DNA of 64,000 nt from Physcomitrium patens (lineage: Eukaryota; Streptophyta; Bryopsida; Funariales; Funariaceae): NCBI RefSeq assembly GCF_000002425.4, contig NC_037263.1, forward strand, positions 4,433,199-4,497,198, in the 5' to 3' direction. The notes beneath the pieces are model-generated. The model saw only the letters and a list, made by a program, of their open reading frames with translations, did no database searches and was not told where the DNA came from. Below are positions 1,625-42,600 of the stretch, piece after piece (position 1 is the stretch's first letter; each line of letters begins with the position of its first letter). Both the position numbers and the translations under genes were made by a program.

Positions 1625-3373
1625 ATGGCTGAATCGAAGCGTATAAGAGCAGCTATCGGCATAGATTTAGGAACCTCTAACAGTCGTGTTGGGATCTGGC
1701 TGGATGAGGAACATCGTTTCGAAGTCATTTCCAATGACCATGGCAAACGGTCCACGCCCAGCTATGTCGCGTTCACCGAAACAGAGCGTCTCATTGGAGA
1801 TGCTGCCAAGGATCAAGTGTCGAAAAACCCTGCACATACAGTGTTTGGTAAGTTTCTGGTCACTGGTTGGTTGTGATCATTACTCTAGACATGAGCCAAA
1901 ACTCAGAGTAACTGAAATTCGTTTTCAGCTGTAATCTTGAAATAGGTGCATTGAACAACACATGTTTTGAGGTTGAAGCCTTTGATTTCGTCCGAAGTTT
2001 GAACGAAAATGAATCATATTTCAATCAAAATGTAACCGCAATTGTGTGCTGCAGATGCTAAGAGGTTAGTTGAGAGAAAATTCAGCGAATTAGGCATGAG
2101 TTCTGATGAAATGCGCATCCAGTGGCCATATAGAGTGGCTTGTGGTCTGGATGACAAGCCCATGATACATGTTGAGTACAAGGGAAAAGAGAAGGTTTTT
2201 TCTGCAGACGAAGTGTACTCCATGGTCTTGGGGAAGATGAAAGATCTGGTAGAGGTGTATTTGGGGTCTGTTGTGGATAGAGCTTCTGTCAGCGTTCCAT
2301 ATTGCTTCAACTCTGCACAGAGACAAGCTATCCGGTATGCCTGTAGCGTAGCTGGTTTAGAAACCGTGACTCTTGTCAGTGAATCAATTTGTGCCGCTCT
2401 TGCTTACACGTTGGAAAACGGTCTCCAATCAGTTGGTGAGAAGAAGATAGTGGTTTTCGATCTTGGAGGTGGTTCGTTGGACGTCACTTTGGTCAACATC
2501 GAAGAGGGGGTTATTGAAGTTAAGGCAACAAGCGGAGACGGCCAATTGGGAGGAGAGGATTTTGACTTGAGGCTGATTTATCATTTTATTCATGAAATCG
2601 AGCAAAAGCACGAGAGAGACATCACAAGTCATCCACGTGTTGTGAGGAGATTGAAAAATGAAGCAAAGCGGGTCAAAATAGCTCTTTCCTCCGAGATGGA
2701 GACCACCATTCAGATCGATTCTTTGCTTGAAGATTTTGATTTCCACTCTAGTATCTCACGTGCCTGCTTCGAGGAGATGAATATGGATCTCTTCAAAAAA
2801 TGCATTAAGTGTGTAGAAGATTGTCTACAATATGCGCAAGTGGACAAAGCCGATGTTAATGAGGTTCTGTTGATTGGTGGCTCCAGCCATATTCCGAAAT
2901 TGCGATCAATGTTGGCTGAATTCTTTAATGACGAAACAAAATTGAACAAGTTCACCAATCCTGATGAAGGTGTTGTTATTGGGGCTGCTGCTCGATGTGG
3001 AATTTCCTATTGTTTTAGAGCATTTTCGGACTATCTTGTGGTCGATGTCACTCCATTTTCCTTGGGGTTGGAGACAGTCGGAAGTGTGATGCATGTGATG
3101 CATCCTCGAAATACCAGCATTCCCAAGAGCAGTGAGCAACTTTTTACAACAGTTCATGATGACCAGGACAGCATATGCATCCAAGTTTATGAAGGTGAAA
3201 GTACTCGAACACGTTACAACATATTGATTGCCACATTTGAGTTGTCTGGGATCCTCCCTGCCCCATATGGTGTACCTCAGATCCTCGTGCGTTTTGACAT
3301 CGATGCATGTGGTATCTTAACGGCTACAGTAAAAGATAAGACAACCGGTGGACAAAAGGTGGAGCTTTGTATC
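1625..3373 (+). other. HSP70 module: complete ATPase and SBD-beta, no lid
   Basis: Exon 1 carries the phosphate-1 motif GIDLGTSNS (residues 12-20). The family usually has GIDLGTTYS, so the second Thr is Ser and the adenine-side Tyr is Asn. Exon 2 resumes at the D of TVF-DAKRL, a normal HSP70 join. Phosphate-2 is FDLGGGSLD (about 209-217) and the adenosine motif is LIGGSSHIP (about 347-355). The interdomain linker and first SBD strand read [11 protein letters not shown] (about 405-415). SBD-beta continues through QVYEGE, FELSGI and FDIDACGIL to KDKTTGGQK, about where the beta domain ends in a 640-residue HSP70. The alpha-helical lid and the EEVD tail are absent. If the splice donor at 3374 (GTAAGA) is unused, the protein would end at the stop at 3392-3394. 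Divergence suggests a specialised, not housekeeping, HSP70. Confidence 0.9.
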
Positions 3374-6300
3374 GTAAGATTTACAGACATGTAAAAGCCC
3401 TGTCTTATTGATGTAAAGATCTACGTAAACCTATCTAAACATTACTCTTGCTAATTGTTGTTAAATATTTTGCTACAGGTGTTTTTTTGTTTTATTTTTG
3501 GACTTTGAATGGCAACTAAGTGAAAACAAGGTGCAGTTAATACGATTTTACTCAAGTGCAAAGCCGCTGTTTTTGCTTGTGGTTCTGTGTATAATTCCAC
3601 ATGCAGGAGGAGGTTGATATTGCCAACAGTGAGGTGAATCACGACAATGAGCACTGTCGAAGGCTTCCAATCCAGGTTTGAAATATCAACATCAAAGATC
3701 CATCTTGTAGGTCTTCACTGCATTGAGTTTGTTGATGATATGTCTTCTAATTCTTCTTTTTCTTCTAGGTGTATCATCCCCCCCAGGAGATCAGGTCAGA
3801 GGAGCTGTCTAAACACCTACAAGCGGGCGAGTTAAGTATCACCGCAAAGGATAGTTCGCATGAAGCTTCTGAATCCCCGCAATCAGATGAATCAAGAATC
3901 ACCACGAAGAGCTTGTCACAGGAATTTACTGAACAAGTTCAGACAAATGAATCAAGCGCCACCATAAAGAGCAGGTCACAGATTATTTCGGAATCATCAC
4001 GACCAGATGAACCAAGCAACATTCTGGAGAACAGTTCAGAGGGATTCACTAATGTAGCTCAAGCAGTTGATGAGTTTGGTGAGCCAGGTGAATATTTTCA
4101 AGAACTAGGACTGGATCTAGAACATCATAGCTTTGAGGAAAGTCAAGAAGAAAATTCAGAGGTACAACACCACTTGTAATTCGTCGCCATTTGCAGTGCC
4201 AAATGTCTTTGAACGTCTTTTATTGCATATTTGGTCAGCTTGTCATTGACGTAGCGTAGGTAATGCAGCCGATCTGTAGAAATTGTTGTTGGGCTTATTC
4301 GAAATATGTGCTTAAACAGAGTGCTCGTTCCGTCGACGAGAGAAGTGTAGGGGCCGCAGCTCCAGTTGAGGGTATTGTTAGTGCCAAGGAGAATAGGTCG
4401 CAAGAATTTTGTGTATCACATGCATATGGCTCAAGCAATATCGTAGAAGACAAGTCAATGAAATCGTTTGATCCACCGGAAGTATTTGAATCATGCATTG
4501 CTTTGGAGATCATGTCAGAAGAATTTTGTGATCCACCTCAAGTATATGGCTCAATCATTGCTGAGGAAAGATCACAAGGATTTTCTGAACTAAGAGATGC
4601 GCTTAAAACAGTCGACGCAGTTGAGGGCGTGTCACGGGAATTTCCTGAACTACCAGAATCATCTGGATTAAGCATCCCGATGGAGAGGACACAGGAATTT
4701 CCTGAGATGGCTGAATTACAAGGATCTAGCAACTCACTAGAATGTGAGCTTCAGGAAATTGCTGCACCACCACAAGAATCGGAATTGAGCCACACCAAGG
4801 AGAGCAGATCGCAAGTCTCTCTATTGGAGAAGATAATTGATACTGTCACTGTTGTAACTTCAATTAAAGATTTCAAAGCTCATAAAAAGGAGTGTTATAC
4901 TCTCATAAGACGTGTAAAGGCCCTTGCTCTACTCTTCGACGAATTCAAGGACAATGGATTGTCTCTGTCTGAAGAAGTCTTTGGATGCTTTAACTTTTTG
5001 GACACAGAATTAAACAAAGCCAAATCTTTGCTTCTCCTGTGCCATGACGGAAGTAAACTTTATCTGGTGAGTTTTTGTCTCACTTTTGAAGCTTAATTAA
5101 TGAAAACACTCAATCCCAAGGTTTTCTCAATTATCCATGTTTTTCCTTTTGGCTTAGACCCATCTTTGTGTCTTGCAAACTATTAAAGAAATTTGCTTTT
5201 CCTTTGTTTTCTAGTTCGCTGCAAAATTGTCTTTTAATTGGTAGTCATTTGCGGATTTTACGACATGGAAATACAGTCATATTCTTCTTCATGGACCTGG
5301 GTTTGCTAGTAATATAGTTAGCTGAACCTACTAACCACTTTGTTTTCCAGATCTTAGAGCTACAAAAAGTGGCAGATAAGTTCTTGGTGCTGAACACAGA
5401 AATGTCACTTGCTTTACAAATGTTGCCAGCATTGGACTCTCTTGATATTGCTAAAGAAGTCAAGGAGCAGGTTGATTCCGACAGCTAGTTAATTCAGTGC
5501 ATTCGAGCATTTATTTTTATTTATACATCTGAAATTTTATTAATTATCCTTATTTGCTGTAAAGAGGAGTGTGTTCTAGCATGTCGTAAGATGGCAAAGT
5601 TTCTACTAAAGTATCCGTAAACACCATTTTCATCTTTGAAATGTTCCAGGTTCAAATGGTACAAAATCAATTCAAAAGGTCAAAAGTGGTGGAAGATCCT
5701 TCTGATACGGAGTTGAATGTTGAATTAATTTCAGCTTTGGAAGGGTCACATGAACGCTCAAAAAATCAACTCGAAAGACTTGCTGGGTTATTCAAGTTTG
5801 ATACTGCAGGAATGCTGATGAAAGAAGCACAAGTCCTACATGATCTGAAAATGGAAACGGCACCGGCTCTGGATGATGTTTTTAGTAACGAGCGAGGATT
5901 GGAGCAAATCTTAGAACTGCTTAATGATTTGAAGATTCTCTTTCCACAAGAAAACCAAGAGCATGATGTCTCTGAAGTGGAAAACTTAAAAGAACAGAGT
6001 ATTGTTGCAGATAATACCATCACGCAACCTACATCTGCAGCTGGGACAGGAGAAGGAGCGAAAAACTTCCTAATTGGTTCCAAATTTCCTAATTCTCTGG
6101 AACAAAGCAACCTTGTCCTTAGTGTTTCCTCTCAGGTTATTGGAGCGCTTATATTTCTAATTCTTTGTGTGTATATCTATTTACTCCTGTGAATGTCGCA
6201 AGTTAACATATACATGTATTTCTTCAAATATTCCTTAGTTCCTGAATTTCTATTATAGGATTATAATTGAAAAGATCCCATACTAAGAATATTTCTAGCA

Positions 6301-7054
6301 CATATCTTATTTTGGGACCAACTGAACATTCGCAGTTCTTTTTTTCTTTATATATTCCCCTAGAATTGTTAAAAACTCATCTTCCAGCATTCTTTCCGAA
6401 GTTTTGAGGAATTAATTGTTCATTATCTTAAATAGTTCAATGCTTCATTTCCACCCTGGTCCTATGCAATCTTGTATGTTTTTTCTTTCAGAAGAGGATT
6501 GGGAAGCTTTATGCTTGTAGATTTCGTTTTCAAATGTTCAATATATCTCACTTTAGGTGCTCACTTTGCTCTGCTTCCTTCTTCAGGGTATGGAGACCAG
6601 ATCGCATGATCACTTCAAACCACCACAGTCATATGGAGTGGACAATACAAGTGAAAGTAAGTCACGGGAAATTTTAGAACCTCCAGTAGTATATGGATCA
6701 AGAAACATTGAATTGAACCTGCCAGATGAAGTTTCAGATTCATCACAAGCGATATTTGGATTAAATAAAGTCTTCAAGAGCAGGCCACAGGAATTTTCTG
6801 AACTCCCACATGCATATCCAGCAAGGACCGGTTCAAGAAGCGCTGCTCAGGAAGTTCCTCGACCACAATTATATGACGCAAGCAACTATATGGAAAGGAG
6901 TTTACAAGGTCTCCCTGAAAGATTACCAGCGCAAAGCTCAAGCGACGAATTAAAGAGCAATTCATTGACCCCTTTTTATAACAAACGACCTGACAGACTC
7001 AGCCAGACGCTTGGAAGCAAGCCACATGAGGCTTCGGAGTCACTAACATCATAG
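1625..7054 (+). CDS. HSP70 - repeat linker - UND chimeric protein (exons 1-8, ending at an in-frame TAG)
   Basis: The proposed exons are 1625-1847, 2055-3373, 3607-3675, 3769-4161, 4320-5066, 5351-5470, 5650-6135 and 6587-7054. Every junction uses GT..AG and keeps the frame (phase 1 after exon 1, phase 0 afterwards), giving about 1,274 aa before the TAG. Order of parts: HSP70 nucleotide-binding and substrate-binding beta domains (residues 1-514), a Ser/Glu/Pro-rich repeat linker (515-833), a PUB12/13/SPL11-type UND helical domain (about 834-1055), then more linker. The start ATG gives a normal cytosolic HSP70 N-terminus with no targeting peptide. The same frame runs on beyond the TAG into a kinase domain (7055-8604). 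Exons 1-2 and the UND exons are secure by homology. Joining HSP70 to the rest across 3374-3606, and joining exon 7 to 8, rests on splice signals and the shared linker repeat. Two or three adjacent genes remain possible. Confidence 0.6.
3607..4816 (+). other. Degenerate ~18-20-residue repeat linker, first block
   Basis: Exons 3, 4 and the first two thirds of exon 5 encode low-complexity, Ser/Glu/Pro-rich protein with a recurring unit. The core is roughly S-(R/K)-S-Q-E-F-(S/P/C)-E/D followed by PP-(Q/E)-(A/V)-YGSS-(N/S)-I. Examples are [63 protein letters not shown] and [16 protein letters not shown]. The same unit reappears in exon 8 after the UND domain, which is the main argument that the HSP70, UND and kinase parts belong to one gene. 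No transmembrane segment is seen. It is probably disordered; its function is unknown. Confidence 0.6.
4817..5943 (+). other. UND-like helical domain (U-box N-terminal type, PUB12/13/14/SPL11)
   Basis: Spread over exons 5, 6 and 7 (about residues 834-1055). The run from [20 protein letters not shown] through [21 protein letters not shown] and DGSKLYL, then VADKF, the [11 protein letters not shown] segment and QFKRSK, follows the order and spacing of the UND of plant U-box ligases of the PUB13/SPL11 type. In that family the same landmarks read RRIK..L..LFEE, SEE, AK.LL..C..GSK.YL, LDISDEVREQVELV and QFRRAK. It then continues with the D-x-E-L segment and the L..L...F....L..EA..LH.L helix. No U-box or ARM repeats follow. 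In known proteins the UND mediates exocyst, receptor-kinase and other partner contacts, so a scaffold role is likely by inference. Exon boundaries 5066, 5351, 5470 and 5650 are all phase 0. Confidence 0.8.
6136..6192 (+). other. Alternative hydrophobic C-terminus if intron 7 is retained
   Basis: If the donor at 6136 (CAG|GTTATT, a weak match) is not used, exon 7 reads on for 18 residues, [18 protein letters not shown], and stops at 6190-6192. That is a single hydrophobic stretch at the extreme C-terminus, as in tail-anchored membrane proteins. The product would be HSP70-linker-UND of about 1,137 aa with a membrane anchor and no kinase. It may be chance AT-rich intron translation. Confidence 0.35.
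6193..6586 (+). other. Rest of putative intron 7 (AT-rich, noncoding)
   Basis: Longest intron of the locus (6136-6586 in the spliced model), AT-rich, ending in a pyrimidine-rich tract and CAG at 6586. If the locus is really two genes, this would hold the 3' end of the first and the promoter of the second. I see no decisive signal either way. Confidence 0.4.
7052..7054 (+). other. In-frame TAG inside exon 8 of the HSP70-UND-kinase locus
   Basis: The frame before (6587-7051) and after (7055-7732) this TAG is the same, and both sides encode the same linker repeat: ASESLTS before, [18 protein letters not shown] after. A single C-to-T change from CAG would create it. No nearby GT/AG pair neatly removes it. 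It makes the kinase part either untranslated, a product of read-through or internal initiation, or a pseudogene portion. Confidence 0.85.
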
Positions 7055-8604
7055 GAATCGAGCATCGTCGTTGAAGGCAAATTCCAGGGACTGTCTGATC
7101 CACCACCATCACAGGGATCTCATAACGATTTAGAGGGCAGCGCACATGAATTCTCAGAGCCACTACAAGCATACAGGCCATACGAAGTTTCTGAAATATC
7201 ACCCACACATTATGGATCAGGCAGCGCCTCAGGGAGTATGCGGCGTGACTCTGCCGAATTGGTCCCGGCCTGTAAGTCGAGCAACGCCTCAGAGAGTGGG
7301 CATCACGAAGCTTATGAACGTTCAACATCTTATAGATCAAGTTCGACCTCAGACATAAGCTCTGAGGAATTCTCTGGGACGCTTCGAGGCGATGGATCAG
7401 AGCAAACCTCAGGAGACATGGAACTTAAGGGTCGTGGTTCGCCCAGGTTACATAGATCTGCGACGACTGCTGATAGTCCACAGGCGATACCAGTGAATGC
7501 TCGTAGTGCCTCGTGGCCACAAGTCAGGTCAATTGACTCAATTTTTGAAGATCCTGTTAAGAATTATCATTGGGATGAAGTTCTAGCTATGACGGATAAT
7601 TGGGAATCCAAGCGACTTGGAAAGGGTGGTTTTGGTGCTGTGTTCCTGGGGAAGTTGCAAGATGGAAGAGAGGTGGCGGTGAAAGTCCTTGATGCGTCTT
7701 CTCAGCAAGGAACAAATGAATTTCTTAATGAGGTATTTGGAAAGCATTGTCTCAGTTTTGGATTCAGATTTCTCTGTCCCTCATTGTTGTTTAAGCCTTG
7801 AGGTGTATTGTTCATTATCTGCTGGATCTCATTTGAGTTTGTAATTCGGTAACGTTGTAACAGGTAAATCTTCTCAAAAGAGTGAACCATGTGAATCTGG
7901 TGAGGCTCCTAGGCTTTTGCGATGAGAAGAGACAGGTTCTAATATACGAATTTGCTGAAGAAGGGAGCATATGGGACCATCTTCAAGGTTAGAAACTCTT
8001 CTCTTGGAAACAAATAGAGTCAAAGCCTTGTGGACCATCAGCTTCAGGGATAGACACAGAACATGTGTGAGCAGGAGCGTCGTTGCGGTTGAACTTGGGC
8101 GCATTGATTGATCTGTGGCATGCAATGAAATGCAGTGGGAGGAAAGCCCCTTGAATGGAAGCAGCGTCTCAACATTGCACTACACTCTGCTTGCGGTATG
8201 ATCGATATTGCTGCATCTGTTTGATACTGAGCTTGACACAAGACCCTGTGAGCGGGTGTCCAACAGTTTGGAATTGCTATAATATTCGCAGTTTGTCACT
8301 TTGCATGTGGAAATTAAGTGTGGACAAATCGTGTTGGGGCTGAGGTCTAAGCACGTGGACCTACCATACCGACTAAAACGATGCGTTTTTGTATCAGGGC
8401 TTGAATATTTGCACACCGGCTGCAGTTCTAGAATCATCCATAGGGACATCAAGAGTCAAAATATTCTTCTCACGAAGAGCATGGTTGCCAAGGTCGCTGA
8501 TTTTGGCCTGTCAAAGTTGGGCAGCGACCAAGACAATCTAATGAAAACGCATGTTACTACCATGGTGAGGGGAACTCTTGGGTATTTGGATCCAGAGTAT
8601 GTTT
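7055..8604 (+). pseudogene. Linker plus receptor-like Ser/Thr kinase module, truncated after the activation segment
   Basis: Exons are 7055-7732 (same frame as exon 8), 7864-7987, 8136-8195 and 8398 to about 8604, with phases 0, 1 and 1 matching at each join. After more linker repeat, the kinase starts near [13 protein letters not shown]. It has the glycine loop [12 protein letters not shown], the catalytic lysine in REVAVKVLD, a helix-C Glu in NEFLNE, the hinge LIYEFAEEGSIWDHL, the catalytic loop [12 protein letters not shown] and the metal motif VADFGLSKL. It ends at [13 protein letters not shown]. Kinase key residues are therefore intact, and the sequence resembles LRR-type plant RLK domains. 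Subdomains IX-XI are not found before the solo LTR at 9033. With no signal peptide or ectodomain it would be cytoplasmic. It is truncated, and separated by the TAG from any start, unless translation begins at the Met near 7223-7240. I call it a probable pseudogene portion. Confidence 0.7.
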
Positions 8605-9032
8605 TCTTCACTCAATGCGATGGGTTTTCAGGCTGAGTGAACTGGTTTGTGTAGATTAATCCACCACTACTCATGCTTGATTCTGCTCATTTCGATGATT
8701 TTAGTTGAGCTCCGCAAGTTTGCATTCTTTTCTGACGACTCCATTTGACATAATCAAGTTAGTCAAATTAGTCGTTGTCCAGGTGTCCAACCCACTGTGA
8801 GCAAATGATGGATTTTGAAAGATTTTTTTGATGAACTTGTACAAAAAGTGGGTTTAGAAATAACACAAGTCCATTGTTTAATAACATGCAGTTTTATGAA
8901 GATTTAATTAATTTTTTTTCTTCTTATTATTTGATTATAGTTGGAATTAAAGATTTATGTAGAAAGTGTATATGGTTCTTATATTTTTGAAACTTAATCT
9001 TTTACCCAATTCTTATGTTTTATTGTTCCTCA
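8605..9032. other. Noncoding flank where the kinase 3' exon should be
   Basis: AT-rich sequence with no kinase subdomain IX-XI in any frame. Either a long intron separates a lost last exon or the gene was broken here before or during retroelement arrival. Confidence 0.5.
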
Positions 9033-9576
9033 TGTCAAAGACACAAATTGGAAGAAGATACATAAACTTGTAGAATCTATGTCAAAAAGAAAGTGATAAA
9101 ATAGAAGAAAGTATGTATATTTAAGGAAGAACTAGAATGGTTATTACCAAAGATTAGAAAACATAAGACTCTTGAAATTAGATTAAAAGCAAGAAAGGAG
9201 TTGACAAGAGCAAGGAAGACCTCACTATTGCTTCTATATATATTATTTAATTAAGAACTATGTGGTGACATACTATAGAATTTCTAATACATGTCCAATT
9301 TGCAAGACACATGTTTAATTTACAAGGCAAGTTTCCTAGGTGTGCACCATATGTCCAATTTGTACTATAAGTGGTCAACATGTCGACACATGGCCTCCTT
9401 GTTGGCAAAGTTTTCAACTTACCAGTCACCAAAAGACATGTGTAAAAGCAAAGCATTATTTATGAATAATTTAGGAAGCTTTTCATAAGATATTATCATA
9501 TTTATCTACTTTGATTTATTTCTACTTATTCTTATTATTTAGATAATTATCAGGATAAATATGTATATCCATGACA
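9033..9576 (-). mobile_element. Solo LTR of the younger gypsy family, flanked by a CCTCA duplication
   Basis: The 544-bp segment starts TGTCAAAGACA and ends ATGACA. Along its length it aligns by eye with the LTRs at 13205-13756 and 19015-19566, for example AAGCAAGAAAGGAGTTGACA and the following CTATATATA block. The bases just before (9028-9032) and after (9577-9581) are both CCTCA, a perfect 5-bp target-site duplication. So it is a true solo LTR formed by LTR-LTR recombination, not a broken element. It is much more AT-shifted than the full-length copy, so it is older. Orientation is inferred from the full-length element. Confidence 0.88.
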
Positions 9577-13204: not shown

Positions 13205-13756
13205 TGTCAAGGAAAAAGACTCGATGAGGGAAAATATACACCAAAAGGCTATCTCGATATAATAAGTCAAAATATAAACAAGTAGGTATATTAAAAGGAA
13301 ACTGGAATGGCTATTGCCACAAGACAAGAAACTAAAGACTCTTGAACCTGGACTAGAAGCAAGAAAGGAGTTGACAAGAGTGAAGAAGCCTTCACTCTTG
13401 TCTCTATATATACTATCTAACTAGAGGCTACGTGGCAACGTTCTATAGGACCTCCAATATGTGTTGACTTTATAGGACACATGCCTTGACTTACAAGGCA
13501 AGTTTTTCTACGTGTGGGTCAGATAGTTAGTTTGATCTTCAAGCTAATAACATGTGTGGCACATGGCCAACTTGTTGACCACGTTTCTAATCCAAAAAGT
13601 CAATTAAAGACACCTATGAAGTCAAAGCAGCGTCTAGGAAGTTTCTAGGAAGCTTCTATATTAAATATTATAGAATTAACTTACTTTTATCTACTTTTAC
13701 TTACTTCTACCTATTTCTATATGTAATTATTAGCTTACATGATTATAGCCGTGACA
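13205..13756 (-). repeat. 3' LTR of the younger element
   Basis: 552 bp, paired with 19015-19566. It holds GGAAGTTTCTAGGAAGCTTC near 13636-13655, two heat-shock-element-like palindromes, and a TATATATA box. A decayed homologue lies at 57077-57586 and a solo copy at 9033-9576. Confidence 0.93.
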
Positions 13757-14339
13757 TTACCCCGCCTTCTAGAGACGAGTTCCATGAGGAGCAGTCATCA
13801 TATGTTGAGGAAATCTATGATGCGACGAATTGTATTCGCCACATACTCTGATCTCTGTTCTCTTCGAAGATGATTGATAGGGCCTCTCAACCATCGGTAG
13901 TGTCCTATACCAGGGCGGGAAGACCACCCAGTTATTTGATCATTGCTGAGGCCTTCGTAACTTCCTTCGAATAGAATATTCGGAACACCATCAGGAGTTG
14001 TTCCTACCTCTAGCAAAATCACCAAACATCGAGAGTCCCTTCCCAAATCGTGATACCAAACGCGTTGTATCTCACCATCTGTTCGAGGAAGAACATGTCG
14101 TTCTTGAAGATCTTCATCTCGATTGCGTCGTCTTGAAGGTTGTGACAATCGTAATGTCTCGTCCGGCAGGTCAGCAAACGAAGGTTCTTAAGTTGAATCC
14201 GCTGGTTGTTGGCTCTCCATCCAATTAGCGTCACAAATACAAACAAGGATAGGAAATTGAATGTTATCTTGCCTCAATCTTGTCTCTTTTATAAGAAAGA
14301 TTTTCATCTTGGTTTTGATGGATGTTGTTGATAAAAAAC

Positions 14340-14801
14340 TTTGACTTTAGCTGATGCATTTCCCAGATTCCTGGATGGCTCTCATGTGCGTTCACTAATA
14401 TCATATCCGCGCCAATGAACAAGATATTCTAGCTTATTTCGGCGCCGCCTTGAGTCTAATATCTCTTCCACCTCAAATTCTTCATTATTATCTACTTCTA
14501 TAGGAGGCAGTGGCATTTGTCTTCTTCTTTGTATATCCACTGTCTTATATGGTTCAAGAAGAGACACGTGGAATACAGGATGGATCTTCATTGACTCCGA
14601 TAGATGTAACCGATATGCAACTGGGTTGATCTGTTCAGAAACAAAAAAGGGGCCAAGCCTATGATAGTCCAACTTGTCACAAGGTCGAGTAGTCTTGATA
14701 TTGCGACGAAGTAGCCATACCTTATCACCCACATTGAGTTGTGGTTGCTCCTTACGATATAGATCTGCGTTTATCTTTTGTCGTTCTTGAGCTTCCTTCA
14801 A
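14340..14801 (-). pseudogene. Integrase C-terminus and chromodomain of the younger element
   Basis: Same frame as the integrase stretch upstream, but separated from it by an in-frame TAA at 14802-14804. It shows LNVGDKVWLLRRNI and LGPFFVSEQI, the integrase C-terminal fold. It ends with a chromodomain, FEVEEILDSRRRRNKLEYLV then HWRGYDISERT. The next codon, normally Trp in ERTWEPS, is TGA, after which EPSRNLGNA continues in frame. The chromodomain would target integration to modified histones. It is truncated by two stops that look like G-to-A or C-to-T changes. Confidence 0.88.
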
Positions 14802-15716
14802 TTACGTCTTCATTATTGCATGTAACTCTGACAACCGATTTGCCATATCTTCTGCTGCAGGATCATCAACTTTTGAAAAATCAAAAGTATCAAGTCGTGG
14901 ATGATAGCCATAATTGGCAAAGAAAGGTGTTTGTTGCGTGGAAGAATGTACCGTATTATTATAAGCAAACTCTGCCAATGGCAGAAGGGTTGTCCAATCA
15001 TCTTGTTGGTAGTTGATAGTACACCTTAAATATTGCTCCAAGACTTGGTTTACGCGCTCTGTTTGTCCATCAGTTTGAGGATGGAAAGCCGAAGATAGCT
15101 TTATGTCCACTTTTAAAATCTTGAAAAGGGTCCTCCAAAATCTTGACACAAATTGAGTTCCCCTATCTGATATGATATCTTTAGGTAATCCATGATAGCG
15201 ATAGATATTATCAATGAAAAGCTTAGCTGTTTCTTCACCTGTGATAGATTTTGTACATGGCACAAAATGTGCCATCTTGGTGAAATGATCTACTATCACA
15301 AATATAGAATCATAAGATCTTGAGCTTGGAAGATCTGTGATGAAATCCATAGAAACAGAAGACCATGGTTGTTCTGGTATAGGTAATGGCTGAAGAAGTC
15401 CGTAAGGTCGATGACGAGGAATTTTTGATCTTGAACAAATATCACATGATTGTACAAAGTCTTTGACTGACTTCCACATTTGTGGCCACCAAAAATCTCT
15501 TGATATGAGTTCCAAAGTCTTATTATATCCAAAGTGCCCTGCTGCTGGAAAGTCATGACGTGCTTGAAGAACACGTAAACGTGCTTCTCCTTCTGGAACA
15601 TATAGGCGTCCTTCAAAATATAATAGATTATTCTTGAACTCAAACTTAGAAGGATCATGAGACTTGGAAGAATTATTCTCGATATCATAAACAAGAGGGT
15701 CTGAGGACATACTGGA
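14802..15716 (-). pseudogene. Integrase core of the younger element (open segment)
   Basis: The zinc-binding H2C2 part reads HDFPAAGHFGYNKTLELISR with CDICSRSK. The DDE catalytic core includes SMDFITDLP, IISDRGTQFVSRFW and HPQTDGQTERVNQVLEQYLR. All three acidic catalytic residues seem present. It is continuous with pol except for the TAG at 15717-15719. Confidence 0.9.
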
Positions 15717-17792
15717 CTAGATTTGCTTGAGAAAAGTTGAATCAACAGTCAATGTTGATTTCATTGCTCGGAGATGAAATTGCTTCGGTTTCAAGAAGAC
15801 CATTCTTTGTTGCTCAAAAGCTGCATCTCCTTCTTTTGGTGCAAAATAAGAACGTCTAGATAATTCATCGGACAAACCTTGTTGTTTTCCTGGCTGATAA
15901 GTGATAATGAACTCGAATCTTGACAAAGACATACTCCAACGAGCTTGACGACGATTCAACACGCGTGCTGACATGAAATACTCGAGGTTCTTGTGATCTG
16001 TATACACAGTGACTGGTCTAGAAGCGCCTTCTAGATAATGACGCCATTCTTGAAAGGAATCCACGATCGCAAGAAGTTCTTTATTGTGGATCTCATAATT
16101 GATCTCGGCTGCTGAGAATTTTCTTGAATGAAAAGCTATCGGATGAAGTTTGTCATCTGTTCCCATTTGTGATAAAACTGCACCCAAGGCAAAATCTGAT
16201 GCATCTGTTTCCATAAAAAATGCCTTGGAAAAATCAACACGATATAAGACTGGTGCAGAGACAAACGATGTCTTCAAGGCTTCAAATGTTGCTTCCGCTT
16301 CTTGATTCCATTGGAATTTATCTTTACTAGTCAAGCGTGTAAGTGGAGCTGCAACTCGTGAGAAATCTTTGATGAAGATCCGATAGTAATTGGCAAATCC
16401 CAAGAAACATTGGACATCTCTTACTGTCCTTGGAATCTTCCAATCCATGATTGTTTGGACTTTCTTAGAATCCATCATGAGACCATCATTTGAAATGATG
16501 TATCCTAAAAAGTCAACTTGAGTAGTGTGAAATACACACTTTTCCATCATGGCGTACAATCCTGCATCTCTAAGTTTTTGTAATACTTGACGAACATGTA
16601 TTTCATGTTCTTCGACGTTCTTAGAATAGATCAGGATATCGTCTAGATAGCAGACGACAAAATTGTCTAAGAATTCACGAAATACATCATTCATGAGATG
16701 TTGAAAAGCAGCTGGTGCATTTGTGAGTCCAAAGGGCATGACATTATATTCGAAATGTCCATACCTGGTTCGAAACGCAGTCTTCCATTCATCTCCTTCT
16801 TTGATCCGTACTAGATTATATGCTCCTCTTAGATCTATTTTTGTATAGATCTTAGCTTGATTCAACTGGTCAAGGAGTCCTGATATCAAAGGTAATAGAT
16901 ACCTGTTCTTGATTGTGATCTTGTTGAGTCCTCGATAATCAACACACATTCGTAAAGATCCGTCTTTTTTCTTTACGAATAGAATTGGAGCTCCTGCTGG
17001 AGATTTTGAATGGCGTATGAAATTCTTCGCTAAATTCTCGTCAATATATGTCTTGAGTTCAGCCATCTCATCTTGCGATAAACTGTAAATTGGTCCAAAT
17101 GGTGGCTGAGTTCCTTCCTTGAGGTCGATTGAACAATCATATGGACGATGCTCAAGAAGAATATCTGCATTCTTTTTCTCAAAAACGTCTTGATACTCCT
17201 GATATTGACTTGGAATGCCACTTGAAGTCTTTACGTTTTCAGAAATAGGTGCAGCATAAATAGCAAAAGTTGATCCTTCTTTTGCTGCATGTATAAATGC
17301 TTTTGCACCTATCAGTACGGGTTTTACTATACTAGACTTATAATTTTTTACTTGGTTGGTAGAACTATTAATAACGCTTTGGGAAAAGTCAAGTTTACGC
17401 GAATTCCAATCTATTCGAGGGTTATATTTTTCTAGCCAGGATAAACCTAAAATAACTGGATTGGACGGGGATTTAATGATGTTAAAAGCTATGTAGCTAT
17501 CATGACCATCTATTGTTACTTTTATAGGATGAGTTTCATGAGTGACATCTCCAGAAGACAAGGGACGACCATCTATGACTTCTACATGTACTGGTTTAGG
17601 TTTCTGTACAAAGGATATTTTACGACTTTTAACAAATTGTTCATCTAAAAAACATGCTGAGGCTCCCGAATCTAATAAAGCAGAGGCTTTGTAATTCTTA
17701 GGTCCTAAATATAAGTCTATTATAAAACAAGGAGAGGGTTCTGAGGAGAGGATAGGACCTTCATTAGGAATTGTACAAGGTTCCAGCTGCAC
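15717..17792 (-). CDS. Pol of the younger element: protease, reverse transcriptase, RNase H (691 aa)
   Basis: The aspartic protease active site is LLDSGASACFLDE (near residue 40). Reverse transcriptase follows with AGAPILFVKKKDGSLRMCVD, PFGLTNAPAAFQ and the catalytic VCYLDDILIY. RNase H follows with FMETDASDFALGAVLSQM and VYTDHKNLEYFMSARVLNRR. The reading ends at TAG 15717-15719 in a place where relatives continue into integrase; the next frame-matched stretch is integrase. So one Gln codon appears to have become a stop, and the element is probably non-autonomous now. Confidence 0.92.
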   Translation of the reverse strand: MQLEPCTIPNEGPILSSEPSPCFIIDLYLGPKNYKASALLDSGASACFLDEQFVKSRKISFVQKPKPVHVEVIDGRPLSSGDVTHETHPIKVTIDGHDSYIAFNIIKSPSNPVILGLSWLEKYNPRIDWNSRKLDFSQSVINSSTNQVKNYKSSIVKPVLIGAKAFIHAAKEGSTFAIYAAPISENVKTSSGIPSQYQEYQDVFEKKNADILLEHRPYDCSIDLKEGTQPPFGPIYSLSQDEMAELKTYIDENLAKNFIRHSKSPAGAPILFVKKKDGSLRMCVDYRGLNKITIKNRYLLPLISGLLDQLNQAKIYTKIDLRGAYNLVRIKEGDEWKTAFRTRYGHFEYNVMPFGLTNAPAAFQHLMNDVFREFLDNFVVCYLDDILIYSKNVEEHEIHVRQVLQKLRDAGLYAMMEKCVFHTTQVDFLGYIISNDGLMMDSKKVQTIMDWKIPRTVRDVQCFLGFANYYRIFIKDFSRVAAPLTRLTSKDKFQWNQEAEATFEALKTSFVSAPVLYRVDFSKAFFMETDASDFALGAVLSQMGTDDKLHPIAFHSRKFSAAEINYEIHNKELLAIVDSFQEWRHYLEGASRPVTVYTDHKNLEYFMSARVLNRRQARWSMSLSRFEFIITYQPGKQQGLSDELSRRSYFAPKEGDAAFEQQRMVFLKPKQFHLRAMKSTLTVDSTFLKQI

Positions 17793-17992
17793 GGTCCCTA
17801 TTGTAGCTGGACGAATCCGTTTTCTGACATGTTGTCTTCTTTGACCGTCGTACCCCTCATTTTATAGTTGCCTCATTTCTTTGGACAATGTTGAGCAGTG
17901 TGCTTAGGTTCTCCGCAATATAAACATAATCCTTCTTGACGACGACGAATCTTTTCTTGCTCAGTTAGGGGTTTAAAACATACCCCATCGAT
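17793..17992 (-). pseudogene. Gag C-terminus with CCHC zinc knuckle, isolated by stops
   Basis: In the same frame as gag, after the TAA at 17993-17995, the sequence reads CLYCGEPKHTAQHCPKK. This is a classic CX2CX4HX4C nucleic-acid-binding knuckle. A TGA follows before the protease region. It is a natural part of gag separated by one stop. Confidence 0.85.
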
Positions 17993-18841
17993 TTACATGT
18001 CTTCTACTTCCGAATGTACGTTTGGCAAAGATGTTGATGTTGCCATTGAGTAATAACGTTGAGGTTCCCGTGAATGATTCTCGGATCGAAATTCAAAAAG
18101 TCGATTATCACATTTTATCGCAAAATCGATTGCTTGACTCAAAGTTTGAGGATCAGGTAAGTTGAGCATCAATTTCTTTACTTCGTATTGCAATCCATAA
18201 AGAAATTGACTGATGAGTGCAGCATCATCCCACTTGATGTCAATTGCAAGTTGTCGAAATTGTGAAGCATATACTGTTACTGAGCAATTTCCTTGTAGCA
18301 AAATTCGGATCTTATTTGTTGCAACACGAGTTGCATCGTGTTCACCATACATAGATCGAAACTCCGCCAAAAAAGCTTCCAAATTGTCCAATATTAGATT
18401 TCGTTGTTCAAGAAAAGACGAAAACCACGATAATGCAGAACCAGAAAGTAGAGTGCTAATAAACCTGACTTGTGATCCTGGAGTTGGATAGCTTTGCGGT
18501 TGGAGTTCAATTGCCAATTGTACTTGATTGATGAACCCTCGAAACTTTGATCTCGTACCATCAAATTTCTCAGGTAAGGCAATTCTTGGTTCTCTAGTGC
18601 TTATAGGGTGTTGTACAATTGGAGAAGGAACGTGATTTGTTGTAGATGTTGAAGCAGCTCCGATCATCTCTATATCTCCACTTTCTGCTATTCTTGTTCT
18701 TTCATGTGTTGGTGAATTGAGTTGATGCATCGCAAGCATTAACTCCCTCATTTGCTCTTGCATTTGTGCCATTGCACTCTTCATTTCAACAAGCTCTGCC
18801 ATAATGACACTAAGAAGAAAAATTTGTTTGATATTGCTCAA
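17993..18841 (-). CDS. Gag capsid part of the younger element (282 aa)
   Basis: The retrotransposon gag domain begins at PEKFDGTRSKFRGFINQV and continues through GSALSWFSSFLEQR and FAEFRSMYGEHDA-like helices to YGLQYEVKKLMLNLPDP. The likely initiator is the internal Met before AELVEMKSAMAQMQ, where a coiled-coil-like N-terminus starts. It ends at a TAA just before the zinc knuckle, probably a premature stop. Confidence 0.88.
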   Translation of the reverse strand: MSNIKQIFLLSVIMAELVEMKSAMAQMQEQMRELMLAMHQLNSPTHERTRIAESGDIEMIGAASTSTTNHVPSPIVQHPISTREPRIALPEKFDGTRSKFRGFINQVQLAIELQPQSYPTPGSQVRFISTLLSGSALSWFSSFLEQRNLILDNLEAFLAEFRSMYGEHDATRVATNKIRILLQGNCSVTVYASQFRQLAIDIKWDDAALISQFLYGLQYEVKKLMLNLPDPQTLSQAIDFAIKCDNRLFEFRSENHSREPQRYYSMATSTSLPNVHSEVEDM

Positions 18842-19014
18842 GACAAAAGAAAAAAAAGACTTGATAACAAAGAAGATACTAAGAACAATATCAGTTTAGA
18901 AGTGGGTAATCCGCAAACTTCTAATACGCTTATGTCTTGTCAAGAGAAAGGGGTAATCCACTCTTACTCAAGAAAAAATAAAGCTATGATTTTGTAAGTG
19001 TACTCTTGTCAATC
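18842..19014 (-). other. Leader and presumed primer-binding region of the younger element
   Basis: Short untranslated leader between the 5' LTR (minus-strand end at 19015) and gag. On the minus strand it begins GATTGACAAGAGTACAC. I could not match this to a common initiator-tRNA primer site. Confidence 0.5.
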
Positions 19015-19566
19015 TGTCAAGGACAAAGACTCGATGAGGAAAAATATACACCAAAAGGCTATCTCGATATAATAAGTCAAAATATAAACAAGTAGGTATA
19101 TTAAAAGGAAACTGGAATGGCTATTGCCACAAGACAAGAAACTAAAGACTCTTGAACCTGGACTAGAAGCAAGAAAGGAGTTGACAAGAGTGAAGAAGCC
19201 TTCACTCTTGTCTCTATATATACTATCGAACTAGAGGCTACGTGGTGACGTTCTATAGGACCTCCAATATGTGTTGACTTTGTAGGACACATGCCTTGAC
19301 TTACAAGGCAAGTTTTTCTACGTGTGGGCCACATAGTTAGCTTGATCTTCAAGTTAATAACATGTGTGGCACATGGCCAACTTGTTGACCACGTTTCTAA
19401 TCCAAAAAGTCAATTAAAGACACCTATGAAGTCAAAACAATGTCTAGGAAGTTTCTAGGAAGCTTCTATATTAAATATTATAGAATTAACTTACTTTTAT
19501 CTACTTTTACTTACTTCTATTTATTTCTATATGTAATTATTAGCTTACATGATTATGGCCGTGACA
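19015..19566 (-). repeat. 5' LTR of the younger element
   Basis: 552 bp, nearly identical to 13205-13756. Most of the differences I see are C/T or G/A exchanges, such as GGCAACG against GGTGACG. Followed directly by GAATG, the duplicated target site. Confidence 0.93.
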
Positions 19567-36655: not shown

Positions 36656-39600
36656 CTACATACAAAAGAGGAGTAAAGTTAGCAGTGTTGTTCAGAGATT
36701 CGAATCCCTAAGTGCCTGTATACTGTGATAACGGCTCACAAGTATACTAATGTTTGAATCATTCGAGAGAAAATTGGGTGGTTAACATACCTCAGCATCT
36801 TTATCAGCATTTTGGGCCAGCTCCAGTTCCTTATTCAATGCCAACAAATCTGACCATAAAGAATCTCTCTCGATTTCAACCTCCTTCAAATTGTTTTCAG
36901 CTTCCTGAAGCATGCTATCTCGTTTGCTTTCAGAAAGAAGAAGCTCCTGCTCTAGAGCTTTCAAGGCGGCTTCCTTCACCTTCAACTCTGCTTCTAATGC
37001 GGCTGCTTTGGTCTTCAACTCCTCTATCTGATCCCTCATTACCATGTTTTCTACTTCAGCGTTTGCAGTCGCTATGTTCAATGCGTAGATTTCTTTTCTC
37101 ATCAAATCTAGTTCATGAACTTTTATGGCAAGTTCAGACTCTAACTCTGACACAGAATTCTGATGATTTCTCTCAATATCTCCTGTATGACCGTGGCATT
37201 CATCAAGCTTGGAGTGTAAATCCAAGAGATCGGCATCATTACCAGCTACAGAAGCCTGAAGTTTGGAAACTGCTACCTGCGCTGAGTTCAGCACCACCTG
37301 ACTGATTTCAAGATCAAATTCATTGACATCACAAACATCTGTCTGGTTCCACTTCAGCGCAGATACTTCTGCTAGAGACTGACGAATAGCTTGGAGGCTC
37401 AATTCTAGCAGTGATTCAGTAACCTCTCCATCATGATTTTGCTGGAGTTTCTCAGCAACCCGTGGCTTTTCGGTCAGAAAAGAATTTTTCATTTCTGCCT
37501 TCTCTACAGCATCTGCGTAACAGTCAATACTGAGTTTGATTTCGGCCCCGACGTCATCTTTTAGAGCAGCAAAACATGTGCGGAGTTCATCCATTATTTC
37601 GCTTTTCACTTGCTTTACATTATCCGCCAATGCTTCAATTTCTTTCTCGCAGTGGCTTTTAGTATTTTCAACCTGTTGTTTCGTAAGATCTAGTACTTCC
37701 AGGGTCTCCGCATAAAAATTCTTAACGGCAACTTCCTGAGATATAAGTAGCCTCTCGTATTCTAGTTTCCATCCTTCTGCATCACTCTTGGCTCTGTCCT
37801 TCGCGTGAACTAGTGCATCAACCATCATTTCAGCCTCTCTCAATGTTACACGGTTCACTTCAAAGTTCCTGGCCAAGGTTGCAGCTTCGCTTCCCTTTTG
37901 GTTCGCATCCAGTCTCGCGATGTCCCGCTCTGCTACCAGTGTTTCTTTTTCTCTTCTCCACTTGGACTCTAACATAATCGACCGTTCTTCTGTTTGATTC
38001 AACATCGTCATGAGCTTGGTAATCTCATCCTCATACACCTCCACTTCCCTTTGTCTTGAAAGTAACGCTTTCGAGTTTGAACGTTCCTCATGTTCTGGCA
38101 GATAACTTTCGTGAGCTTCTGACCTGGTTTTCTGCTTCAATGCTATGAGGTCACAGATAGCGGAAGATCCTTCCCTCTGCGCTGAGAGAAGAGCAGCATG
38201 AAGGCGATCATTTTCATCCCTTAAACCTTCGCACTCAGCCTCTTTGTCAGCCAGACGATTCTTCATTCCTTCAACCTCAGCGTTCAGATTGGCTATTTCC
38301 AAGCTCGACCTCTCTTCTGCGACATACATCTCTTGGACAAGCAAATCCAGGGAATTGGCTCTCTCTTCCGACCGGCGAATGTTTGGAGAGGTGACGTCCA
38401 GACATTTCTCCAACGACGCACATTTCGCAAGTAACTCTCCCCTCTCAGACATGCAACCGCTGCTATGTTGTTGGTGAGAATCATTAGCCTCTACTGCTTC
38501 CTGCAGTTCCAATTTGAGCTGCGCAAGGGCATCGTTAGTCTCCTGTAGGGCTTTTTCCTTCTCCTTTAATGAACTAGCAAGCTTCACTGATACATAAGTA
38601 GCTTCGTTCTTCTCAAGTTCCAAATTTCGGTTGGAATAGCGCAAGCTTTCAATCTCCGTTATCAGAGCTGCCATTTTATCTTCTTCGTACTCTAGGGTGT
38701 TGTGCCTGGTTCGCGACTCCTTAGACTCGAAAGTGTCATGCTTCATAACTTCGGCATGTTCCAGCTTGACACACATATCTACGAGATCGTCCTTTAATTG
38801 TTCCGTTTGTGCATCCCAGCTCGCTTTTGAAAGTCGGAGTTCTTCTAACTCCACCAAGAGGGCCGCCTCGCGGCATTTAGCGCATTCAACCTGAATCTGC
38901 AGACTAGACAAAGCGTTCTGAGAATCAGTATACTGCCGCTCAAGTTCACGCAGAGTACCCACAAGTGTGGCTTTCTCCACATCATATTTTTGGTTTGCGA
39001 CTTCAAGTGCTTCTTGTGCTTGGATAAGCTCCAGGTTCCGGACTTTTGCTTGATGTAGATTCATTTCAGCACGGGTTAAATCATCCCGCATAGCAAGCAA
39101 CTCTGCCTCGCATTCGGAAAGCCGGATTTGAGTTAAAACCTTCTCATCAGTGAGCAGCATACTAGCCTTTCCAGCATTCAGTGATTCTCGTGGTAACATG
39201 TGTGTGTTATCCGGAGCCAACAAGCTTAACTCAGTGACGTACTGATCTGTTTGAGCGGAATCAATCAACTTTTCTGAAGCCACATTCAAGCCCTTTCGCA
39301 GAGACATTAACTCGGCGTCTTTCTCTGTCATCATTGTCTCATACTTCCTGTTGAACAGAATGTTTTCATTCCGCATTTCATCCACCATTCTAAGCGCATC
39401 TGCCAGCTCCTCTCTGAGAACATTCAGATGTTCTTGTGCTGCTGTTTCTCTCTGTAACGCATTAACTAACTCATCTTCCATAGACATGAGCTCGTTGTGC
39501 ATCGTAGAAATTGCGAGAGTAGTCTCTGTCTCTGCTTCGGATCTCGAACAATCTATATCTCGTTGCTTAATTTTCTGAAGCTCTTGCTCAACCTGGAACG

Positions 39601-42600
39601 TTGCATTCAACTCTCGGGCCATATCAAGCTCCTTCCTGGCATTCTCAAGCTTGGTTTCCAGCACCGCCATTTCCTCTTCGTTGAGCATTAATCCCTCTTC
39701 CATTTCTCTTTGTACATCCCGAAGCTCTTGCTCCTTAGTCAGCTCCCAAGTCAGCTGACTAATTTTCCTTTTCAGCAAGCGTTGCTTTTCGTCTCTCCTT
39801 TTCAGCTTAATGAGAAGCTTTTCATGGTTTTTGTGAAGCTTCTCGATCTCGTTGATAGACAAAACTTGTTGATTCTCCAGGGCCTCAACGATCAAGTTCT
39901 GCTCGGAGAGTTTGCTGACTGCTTCATCGATCTGTCTACTATGTTCTGCTGTCATGTCATTTATCGTCTGCTCCAGCTGCTTCCGAAGTGTATGTTCCTC
40001 ATTCCTGGAAGCTTCTGAAGAGATAAGCTTCATCTGAAGGCACCTGGTTTCTTGTTGAGAACGAAGAAGTTCCTCGGGCTCATTCACTTGTCCCTCCAGA
40101 ATTGAGTTCATAGCAGATTGAGCCTCCTCAAGTTCAGCTCTTAGCTTGGACTCCTGAAATTGCACCACATTAAAACCCATAAGATCGACTTCTAGTCTCC
40201 TACACTTAAAAAGGACTTCACTGACAGTTTTCGAAGACATCAATTCAGTACCTTCTGCAACCATAGCACGGACATTGACTCATGTTCAGTGAGTCGTTGG
40301 CTAAGCTGAGTAGTGGCTTTCTCCATCTCCGTACAGCTGCGCCTCTCCAATGCGTGAGCATTATAAGGTGGTTCCTGTAAACGATATGATATGTTACTAC
40401 GTAATCGTTCACGCATAACTTCAAGGAGACAGAACCTTGCGCGGCTACAAGTGTGCTAAAAACTCTGCTAAAATGCCTTGCCTGCAGATTGTGGAAATTA
40501 TGAGCTTCTTTGAGACTTTTCTGTAGCTGTGCTTCAAGATGTTCATTCCTTTTGCGTTCTGAATCCGCTTTAGATTCCATCTGGAAGTCATACAATTCTC
40601 AAGTAGTAAGTACCATCTCTTATACTTTACCCAAACACACTTGGACATGGTCTAAAAATGAAAACTGACTTCATTACCTGCTCAAGTTGGGTTTTGAGCT
40701 CCATGATATCTTGTAGATGCTTTAGTTGTTGCGTCTCCAACAACTTGATTTTATCTTCGTTTTGGAATTGGTTTCGTGCACCCTCATTCCCTCTAAGCTG
40801 CTTGATAAGTGCTTGAAGTTCGTTCGCTTGACTGCGTGTTTAGATTAAAATCTGTTAGTGTCTGCTGAGTGCCACAGTCGTCTGATCAGTTGGTAGGACA
40901 TGCAAAAAAAAATATTGTAGGTCTCAATGTTTCCACCTTTCCATTGCAGCATTGGACTCTAGCACGGAATTCAATTCGCTTCGATAATGTTCCAACTCTA
41001 CTCGGTAATTATTCGCCTGCACACCAGGCCACTTAATAGCATCTGAGATCGTCCTGGAACTCTGGTGCTTGTAACCAGGCAGAGAGAATGAAACAGAGGT
41101 TGCAAGATAAGAAATGCGGTGATAAAAGCGACTCCTACATGAAAGAAAATGTAAATATAGGTTTACCTCAGTACGTAAAAGCTCAATCTCACGATCTTTG
41201 GCGGCAAGTTCGACTGCAGAAACGCGTTCCTGGCAACAGAAGGACATCACTTGGTAAGTAAAAAGTTGCTTAGGAAGTTGTTGGGGGACAGGATGACCTC
41301 AATGATTAAGTCACGTAAAAACCACAAACCCAGAAAAGAATGAAGAACCTTACGAGCGTGCGATTCGCAGGAGAGGTGAAGGGGATGAAAATTAAAATGC
41401 ATACCTGGGATGTTGAGAGTGAGCCACGTACTTGATCTTGGGCAATCTTCCCCTCTAGGACCTCTAATAACTGCTCATAAGATCAAGTTAGAGTTAGTAC
41501 TCAACTCACATGGTGATAGATCAAAGTAGATTAGTATGAGATTAAAAACACTAATCATTCTGTAGCTCCAGCTGTATCTGCACCTGCACGGATAATATCT
41601 CATACCTTGTCACGTAAATTTGAAATTTCTTGCGCCATGACTTGTTCTTTTCCTTCCTGGAATTCCTTAACACTGCAAACATGGTAACTTGAATTAATAT
41701 ACACGTGAAGTCTAGGTAGTATTCTAGAACTACAAAGACTTAAAGAAATCGTGCAACTGTCCACACAGCTATGCTGTACCTCTTTAACTGATCCAAGAGG
41801 CGAATGTTTTCCATGGCAAAACGCGAGAGCTCAGGATCGCAACCCATTTGACTTCTTAATAACTTAATTTCTTCGCACAGCATGTTCTTCTCCTCTGCAA
41901 GGTGAGTGTCGACATCCAGCAGACCTTGAGAGAGAGCCTCCAGTCGTCTGATTTTGTCTCCTCTTAATCTTAAAATCATCTTGCCACTTTGTGAGTCTTC
42001 TTTGTATTGCTGAACCTGTACACAACAATCCGATAGCAGTTCAGACTCTTAAACAGGAAGACATAGACTTTTCCATGCTTCAGGAAAAGTAAAAAACTTT
42101 TCACCAGTTCATCGGGAAGACTTTACCATACGATGGAGATGCTCAATCTCAGAAGCTCGAAATTTTGTGACCTCTTCAGCAGCTTTCTCCCTCCGCAGTG
42201 CTCCGGCCACAATTGATTCCATCGCTTTCAACTGACGAACCGCAATGCACTCAAATCAAACATGTTAGGAGAAGAGTGGCGGTTACTACGTTCGGAATTA
42301 CAGCTCAACGACAGTACGGGAGTTTTGATGCTGACACATAACAGGATTCTGCATTCATCGAAAAGCTTGCCGTCACACACTTAACCCAACAAACACACTT
42401 ACCTGTTGATTGGTACCCGTTGGGCTTCCAAGTGCTCTTGCAGCATCCCATGACCTATCAACTGGTAACAGGGCTGAAGGAATGCTCGAAATACTTTGCC
42501 GGCGGATCCGATCTAATTCCTCCTGTTGAAATAAAATTTCCATCAACTCGAATCCATTTTCACTTGGAACAATCAGTCAGTCAAGAATGTTGATGAGATA

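Follow-up and report, generated by a model that had tools for sequence, protein, structure and literature searches.

Two Physcomitrium patens proteins that combine MCAfunc and kinase domains with an additional HSP70 domain have been listed as the 'Pp' type (PMC8049495, Table 2), which in the accessible portions of that paper is given one sentence and a table footnote and is absent from the Discussion. The HSP70-UND-kinase combination, which an initial annotation of the DNA studied here had considered unrecorded, is therefore already in print, as far as those portions describe it. Our moss fusions resemble the Pp type in having similar domain kinds in the same species, and no relative outside P. 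patens is given in the accessible text; the two published proteins are likely those of the contig-7 and window loci described below. The monocot 'Os' type from the same survey shares a UND-like helical domain joined to a kinase but, in contrast to the moss fusions, is reported there without HSP70. MCAfunc matches in our analysis scored 20.9 and 17.7 bits against a Pfam cut-off of 35, whereas that survey, by its accessible text, used its own profile (PMC8049495). Searching open-licence literature by title and abstract start found no paper on the function of HSP70-UND-kinase proteins among the matches listed.

The window analyzed here is a 64-kb stretch of P. patens contig 11 (NC_037263.1, 4433199-4497198), from a genome of 470 Mb. 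Three HSP70s recorded under P. patens agree with loci of this genome at 100%: P0155 over its full length, as two pieces, with L008, P0215 over its full length with L002, and residues 72-650 of P0145 with L005. At 1625-8596 on its plus strand lies a gene copy, called the window copy below, with a lid-less HSP70, a PUB10-type UND and an RLK/Pelle-class kinase in that order. Its parts and immediate surroundings are as follows:

1625..1847, plus strand: exon 1, start of the HSP70 nucleotide-binding domain (Pfam HSP70 profile 1-64, E 1e-20)
2055..3373, plus strand: exon 2, remaining HSP70 ATPase domain and substrate-binding beta domain (Pfam HSP70 profile 63-491, E 1e-128)
3607..3675, plus strand: exon 3, junction exon 3' of HSP70 (collinear with contig-7 exon 3)
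3769..4161, plus strand: exon 4a, repeat linker 1 (repeat family D1; a single undivided exon in contig 7)
4162..4319, plus strand: insertion, possible new intron, with a stop codon if read through (unmatched in the contig-7 and contig-3 loci)
4320..5066, plus strand: exon 4b, remainder of linker 1 followed by the first portion of UND (PUB10_N profile 1-71; 32.7 bits in the genome search)
5351..5470, plus strand: exon 5, second part of UND (PUB10_N profile 75-114)
5650..6135, plus strand: exon 6a, region 3' of UND, with a tail unlike contig 7 (alignment)
6136..6586, plus strand: insertion, possible new intron (6000-6600 unmatched in the contig-7 and contig-3 loci)
6587..7732, plus strand: exon 6b, repeat linker 2 and start of the kinase N-lobe, stop-interrupted (Pfam, splice model, alignment)
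7052..7054, plus strand: in-frame TAG in linker 2, the sole stop of the spliced model, at residue 1275
7864..7987, plus strand: kinase exon (collinear with contig-7 exon 7)
8136..8195, plus strand: kinase exon (LQVGGK..LEWK, against LQVGGKVLDWK in Ceratodon)
8398..8596, plus strand: kinase exon with HRD and DFG motifs, the last found (Pfam Pkinase E 9e-16; contig-7 similarity ends at 8602)
9098..9500, no strand assigned: LTR-like repeat downstream of the breakpoint (71-72% to 13269-13671 and 19079-19481)

Pfam was run on nine stretches of the window, which left out 3470-4259 and 7802-8282, and matched HSP70 in two, PUB10_N in two and kinase in three; of these last, only two belong to the locus, the other being an unrelated fragment at 951-1211. 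The domain order given by the initial annotation was confirmed on the plus strand, with HSP70 in two exons (E 1e-20 and 1e-128), UND as PUB10_N in two exons (E 6e-7 and 3e-5) and kinase matches at E 3e-4, which is below cut-off, and 9e-16. Singly, the PUB10_N exons scored 30.5 and 25 bits, each under the curated cut-off of 32.6, and in the genome search the first reached 32.7 against 32.6. The three splice junctions that had been proposed to link the domains (3373/3607, 5066/5351 and 6135/6587) are all GT-AG and in phase; 3373/3607 and 5066/5351 are also found in the contig-7 paralogue, and 6135/6587 is not. The shared repeat is also real, with nine copies of a 42-base unit flanking UND on both sides, and four of the eight spacings between them are 57-60 bases (~20 residues). 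What did not hold was the unbroken exon chain, as the spliced window model has one in-frame stop, the TAG at 7052-7054.

A search of the genome with the HSP70 profile gave 78 matches and revealed one further HSP70 on contig 7 and one on contig 3, both ending close to profile position 500. The contig-7 paralogue (L009, minus strand, in the region 17596540-17604100) was spliced by hand into 11 GT-AG exons encoding an uninterrupted 1702-aa HSP70-UND-kinase protein, in which HSP70, PUB10_N (814-925) and kinase (1414-1683) are all over the Pfam cut-off; the splice models of this gene and of the window copy rest on homology. Its ATG and first donor place match those of window exon 1. Pfam extends the contig-7 HSP70 match to residue 615, and alignment shows no lid. 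The identical HSP70-UND-kinase order was found in an 1890-aa protein of Ceratodon purpureus, P0001 (M758_1G176500), a gene model and the sole full orthologue found. Contig 7 and Ceratodon agree at 385/512 sites of HSP70, 112/216 of the UND region, 156/184 of the kinase as far as the activation loop and 89/120 of the C-lobe; their two linkers agree at only 80/274 and 153/359. PUB10_N scored 79.1 bits in contig 7 and 95.7 in Ceratodon, against the cut-off of 32.6.

Because the intact paralogue and the Ceratodon protein share this domain order, the HSP70, UND and kinase of the window are, as judged from sequence comparison, one gene by descent, as had been proposed. The search for an orthologue with the combined architecture succeeded in Ceratodon, so the objection that there is no such orthologue fails, and we are nearly certain that the HSP70-UND-kinase fusion family is real. 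The suggestion of a failed gene fusion is accordingly wrong for the family; it is partly right for the window copy, which is without a complete kinase.

HSP70 and kinase domains occurred together in at least five proteins among the best 120 of 1160 matches (E up to 0.001), and among the best 120 of 1160 only P0001 carried PUB10_N besides both. A UND search with the Ceratodon protein returned its own query alone (1 of 3449 candidates) and missed the contig-7 protein, and is therefore uninformative on other mosses. The protein database returned other P. patens proteins and not the contig-7 protein, the annotation of which may be split, of another length or absent from the database. Because the searches missed it, coverage by the protein database is partial, and mosses beyond these two lie outside the sample.

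The contig-3 relative (L010, 1446-5954) carries an HSP70 connected by a short linker to a complete kinase, with no UND seen in its frames; a genome search with PF25368 gave 13 matches, none on contig 3. There is a one-base frameshift within its HSP70. The 575-aa sequence P0121 starts right after the frameshift and is an exact substring of the contig-3 spliced model; it spans six intron sites and extends from the HSP70 part to the kinase part. Its entry (16 members, 27 contigs, longest 3269 bases, source 'lgn') was taken as assembled reads, and we infer that the contigs are RNA because the introns are missing. The putatively transcript-derived P0121 thus supports HSP70 being joined to kinase in a transcript of the contig-3 relative, and its start just past the frameshift fits the frameshift being real. 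The best solved-structure matches of the contig-3 kinase were SYMRK (237.7 bits) and FERONIA (228.6 bits). Among the 120 matches listed for the contig-3 protein, at least two, P0121 and P0131, combined HSP70 with kinase. P0131 from Quercus and P0040 from Anopheles, both with HSP70 and kinase, were judged likely to be gene-model merges and left aside; neither P0040, placed in the HSP70 tree, nor P0131, placed in the kinase tree, lies close to the moss clades.

Trees were built of HSP70 (27 rows) and of kinase (25 rows, limited to those returned by the searches). In the HSP70 tree the four moss fusions form a single clade (100/100); contig 3, on a long branch, falls outside a group of the remaining three (100/98), and within that group contig 7 and window pair at only 92/70. 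The kinase tree also places the four in a single clade (99/99) with the inner order unresolved, and its terminal branches measure 0.032 (contig 7) and 0.12 (window). The first intron lies between VF and D, the place where the P. patens HSP70 P0155 splits in L008 (71/72), which points to a cytosolic HSP70 ancestor. In the formation of the parent gene, a cytosolic HSP70 would have retained its first intron but not its lid, and a linker and an RLK/Pelle kinase would have been added to it; UND is present in the contig-7, window and Ceratodon genes and was unseen in the contig-3 relative. On this reading, an older moss gene encoding a soluble HSP70-UND-kinase protein has two copies in Physcomitrium, one of them being the window locus. 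On balance, we favor an older moss fusion with a window paralogue that is without a complete kinase and an intact form of sensor type.

Equivalents of the ATPase-domain residues that we take to be D10, T13 and K71 in HSP70 naming are kept in six of six aligned rows. The other four ATPase positions, scored by eye, are kept in window, contig 7 and Ceratodon except for a change of GGGT to GGGS, and the contig-3 HSP70 has further changes in its ATPase motifs. The substrate-binding beta domain is present in the window copy (Pfam match to profile position 491 of 599); the helical lid and EEVD end are lacking in all four moss fusions (contig 7, window, Ceratodon and contig 3) in an alignment with canonical P. 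patens HSP70. The idea of a ubiquitin-ligase scaffold was not borne out beyond the presence of UND, since neither contig 7 nor Ceratodon gave a U-box or ARM match at E 0.01. The description as receptor-like suits the kinase class; it does not suit the remainder, as the contig-7 and Ceratodon proteins have no membrane-like stretch by a simple hydropathy scan, the only method used (best 19-residue means 1.53 in contig 7, 1.24 in Ceratodon, 1.46 in window and 2.32 in P0029), and Pfam found no ectodomain in either. The hydrophobic read-through of 6136-6192 was considered as a new membrane anchor and put aside as weak, because a contig-7 intron read-through is equal (2.66 vs 2.62) and two of 27 read-throughs reach 2.6. 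On the other side, 17 of 5000 shuffles of 6136-6192 reached 2.5, its order being atypical for its bases.

A complete kinase domain with catalytic motifs, GKGGFG and VAVKV among them, is found in contig 7 and Ceratodon but not in the window copy. The DNA similarity of the window kinase stops at 8602 against contig 7 and at 8612 against contig 3, the kinase model ends past the activation loop, and tblastn across the 64 kb (E up to 1) did not find C-lobe exons of the window copy. The two insertions, 4162-4319 and 6136-6586, are unmatched in the contig-7 and contig-3 loci, where contig 7 has one exon at each; the comparison was at DNA level with contigs 7 and 3 and as protein only with Ceratodon. 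The first has GT-AG ends and keeps the frame. The kinase fragment at 951-1208 was tried as the lost C-lobe and rejected, being ~70% identical to kinases just upstream and 44% to contig 7. This fragment, presumably CrRLK1L-like, is one of several such kinase stretches, with more just upstream (L011, 325-3244).

The similarity break at 8602 lies ~500 bases ahead of the LTR-like repeat at 9098-9500, and because this repeat recurs around Gypsy-like frames, mobile-element damage is a plausible cause of the decay of the window copy. The Gypsy-like frames are on the minus strand at 14802-18895, between LTR-like repeats spanning 13269-19481. Farther along the window, a minus-strand open frame of 1165 aa (36782-40279) appears coiled-coil-like by eye.

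Between contig 7 and window, dN/dS values, which combine both lineages, were 0.19 in HSP70, 0.19 in UND and 0.07 in the shared kinase part by NG86, and 0.22, 0.37 and 0.12 by YN00; they speak against a wholly dead window copy. The low kinase dN/dS suggests that kinase loss was recent relative to the duplication. With Ceratodon as outgroup, unique changes in window versus contig 7 numbered 50 vs 54 in HSP70, 20 vs 18 in UND and 10 vs 3 in the kinase (chi2 3.77, borderline), and, in linker alignments that are unreliable, 25 vs 37 in linker 1 and 55 vs 18 in linker 2 (chi2 18.8). The linker-2 excess is mainly 5' of the stop (32 vs 5, compared with 23 vs 13 3' of it), where the alignment is poor, and therefore gives no date for the stop.

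Since its kinase is incomplete and a stop precedes the kinase, the most likely product of the window copy is an HSP70-UND protein, or none at all, and we consider it highly probable that it is without an active kinase. That HSP70, UND and kinase are instead separate neighboring genes would agree with no RNA read having been seen across the window locus (none were searchable), but order and splice sites match in the uninterrupted paralogue, protein order is the same in Ceratodon, and P0121 links HSP70 with kinase in the contig-3 relative; on the strength of the orthologue and paralogue we reject this explanation and give it almost no weight. The window copy could also be a dead pseudogene throughout, as the stop, the two insertions, the absent C-lobe and the faster linker 2 would lead one to expect. 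HSP70 and UND are open in the spliced model, however, with unique changes no higher than in the sister (50 vs 54 and 20 vs 18), and we regard complete loss of function as a genuine but minority prospect. Very improbable is a window copy that still encodes a full HSP70-UND-kinase protein, through an extra intron bypassing the TAG and a C-lobe that has been displaced. At 6657 a donor-like site matches 7 of 8 consensus bases and would allow introns past 7054 that are in frame as judged by length, and PMC8049495, in its accessible portions, counts two such P. patens proteins, so that an annotation of the window copy may include a kinase hit. An intron from 6657 past the stop could exist, yet would supply no C-lobe; the rest of the window is without C-lobe exons of the window copy, and similarity breaks at 8602, ~500 bases before the LTR-like repeat. 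The reading that we retain is that of an older moss fusion whose window paralogue is without a complete kinase.

HSP70 is joined to other signaling domains elsewhere in plants. At least 14 proteins with HSP70 and NB-ARC occurred among the best 120 of 1160 matches, all from Trifolium or Lotus and 12 also with TIR; the order was HSP70, NB-ARC, TIR in seven of seven that were checked (P0014, P0039, P0041, P0045, P0048, P0052 and P0063). This module order is unusual for plant immune receptors. In P0028, P0029 (Henckelia pumila, Gesneriaceae) and P0031, a kinase is followed by a lid-less HSP70, and a malectin-type domain is over cut-off in P0028 and P0031 and just under it in P0029. By eye, all three of these proteins have GGGN in place of the phosphate motif GGGT, and this replacement suggests that their ATPase may be weak or lost. 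In the HSP70 tree, P0028, P0029 and P0031 and four legume fusions form clades of their own.

A lid-less HSP70 can still bind peptides and hydrolyze ATP, UND is a helical adaptor, and RLK/Pelle kinases are often activated by being brought together. In the intact form, HSP70 would serve as sensor, UND and the repeats as adaptor and spacer, and the kinase as output. The lid-less HSP70 may engage a client or, alternatively, a pathogen protein directed against HSP70; ATP-driven HSP70 movement or UND-mediated clustering would then gather kinase domains, and the gathered domains would start a phosphorylation relay, for which the kinase-less copy may act as a brake. We put forward this client/effector sensor mechanism of the intact form tentatively.

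The HSP70 of the intact gene might alternatively be an integrated decoy, a bait for HSP70-targeting pathogen effectors with the kinase as alarm output. Fusions of HSP70 to receptor-type kinases (P0028, P0029 and P0031) and, in legumes, to NB-ARC-TIR would fit such a role, as would their placement in clades apart from the moss one (3 and 4 rows, respectively). We nevertheless find a decoy unlikely: a pathogen link in moss was neither looked for nor found, window, contig 7 and Ceratodon largely retain the ATP motifs of HSP70, and some of the other HSP70 fusions may be gene-model merges. More doubtful still is the broader proposal that plants repeatedly fused HSP70 to signaling modules that sense HSP70 attack or overload (kinase in mosses, receptor kinase in the Henckelia type, NB-ARC-TIR in legumes), with the window copy acting as a kinase-less HSP70-UND regulator of its sister. 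Because several other HSP70 fusions look like gene-model merges, this wider pattern is a lead only.

Within the favored reading, an older moss fusion with a sensor-type intact form, a chaperone ATPase and a kinase occur in one chain in two mosses of different lineages, which raises the question of whether HSP70 engagement can switch the kinase. Natural controls are provided by contig 7 at full length, contig 3 without UND and window without a complete kinase, and the model moss permits knock-out of the intact gene. To the published record this analysis adds the Ceratodon protein, the contig-3 relative without UND, the loss of the kinase from the window copy and the separate HSP70-signaling fusions in other plants.

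Compared with known systems, the contig-7 and Ceratodon proteins share PUB10_N with the PUB10/PUB13-type U-box E3 ligases but differ in having HSP70 and kinase, with U-box and ARM unmatched. The moss fusions are like the receptor kinases SYMRK and FERONIA in the kinase, as seen in the contig-3 relative, whereas contig 7 and Ceratodon are without a detected ectodomain or membrane-like stretch. P0028, P0029 and P0031 resemble the moss fusions in that HSP70 ends at profile position 495-499, yet their HSP70 is C-terminal to the kinase and belongs to a separate HSP70 clade. The legume HSP70-NB-ARC-TIR proteins likewise join HSP70 to a plant signaling module as the moss fusions do, but their partner is NB-ARC-TIR and their HSP70 clade is a separate one.
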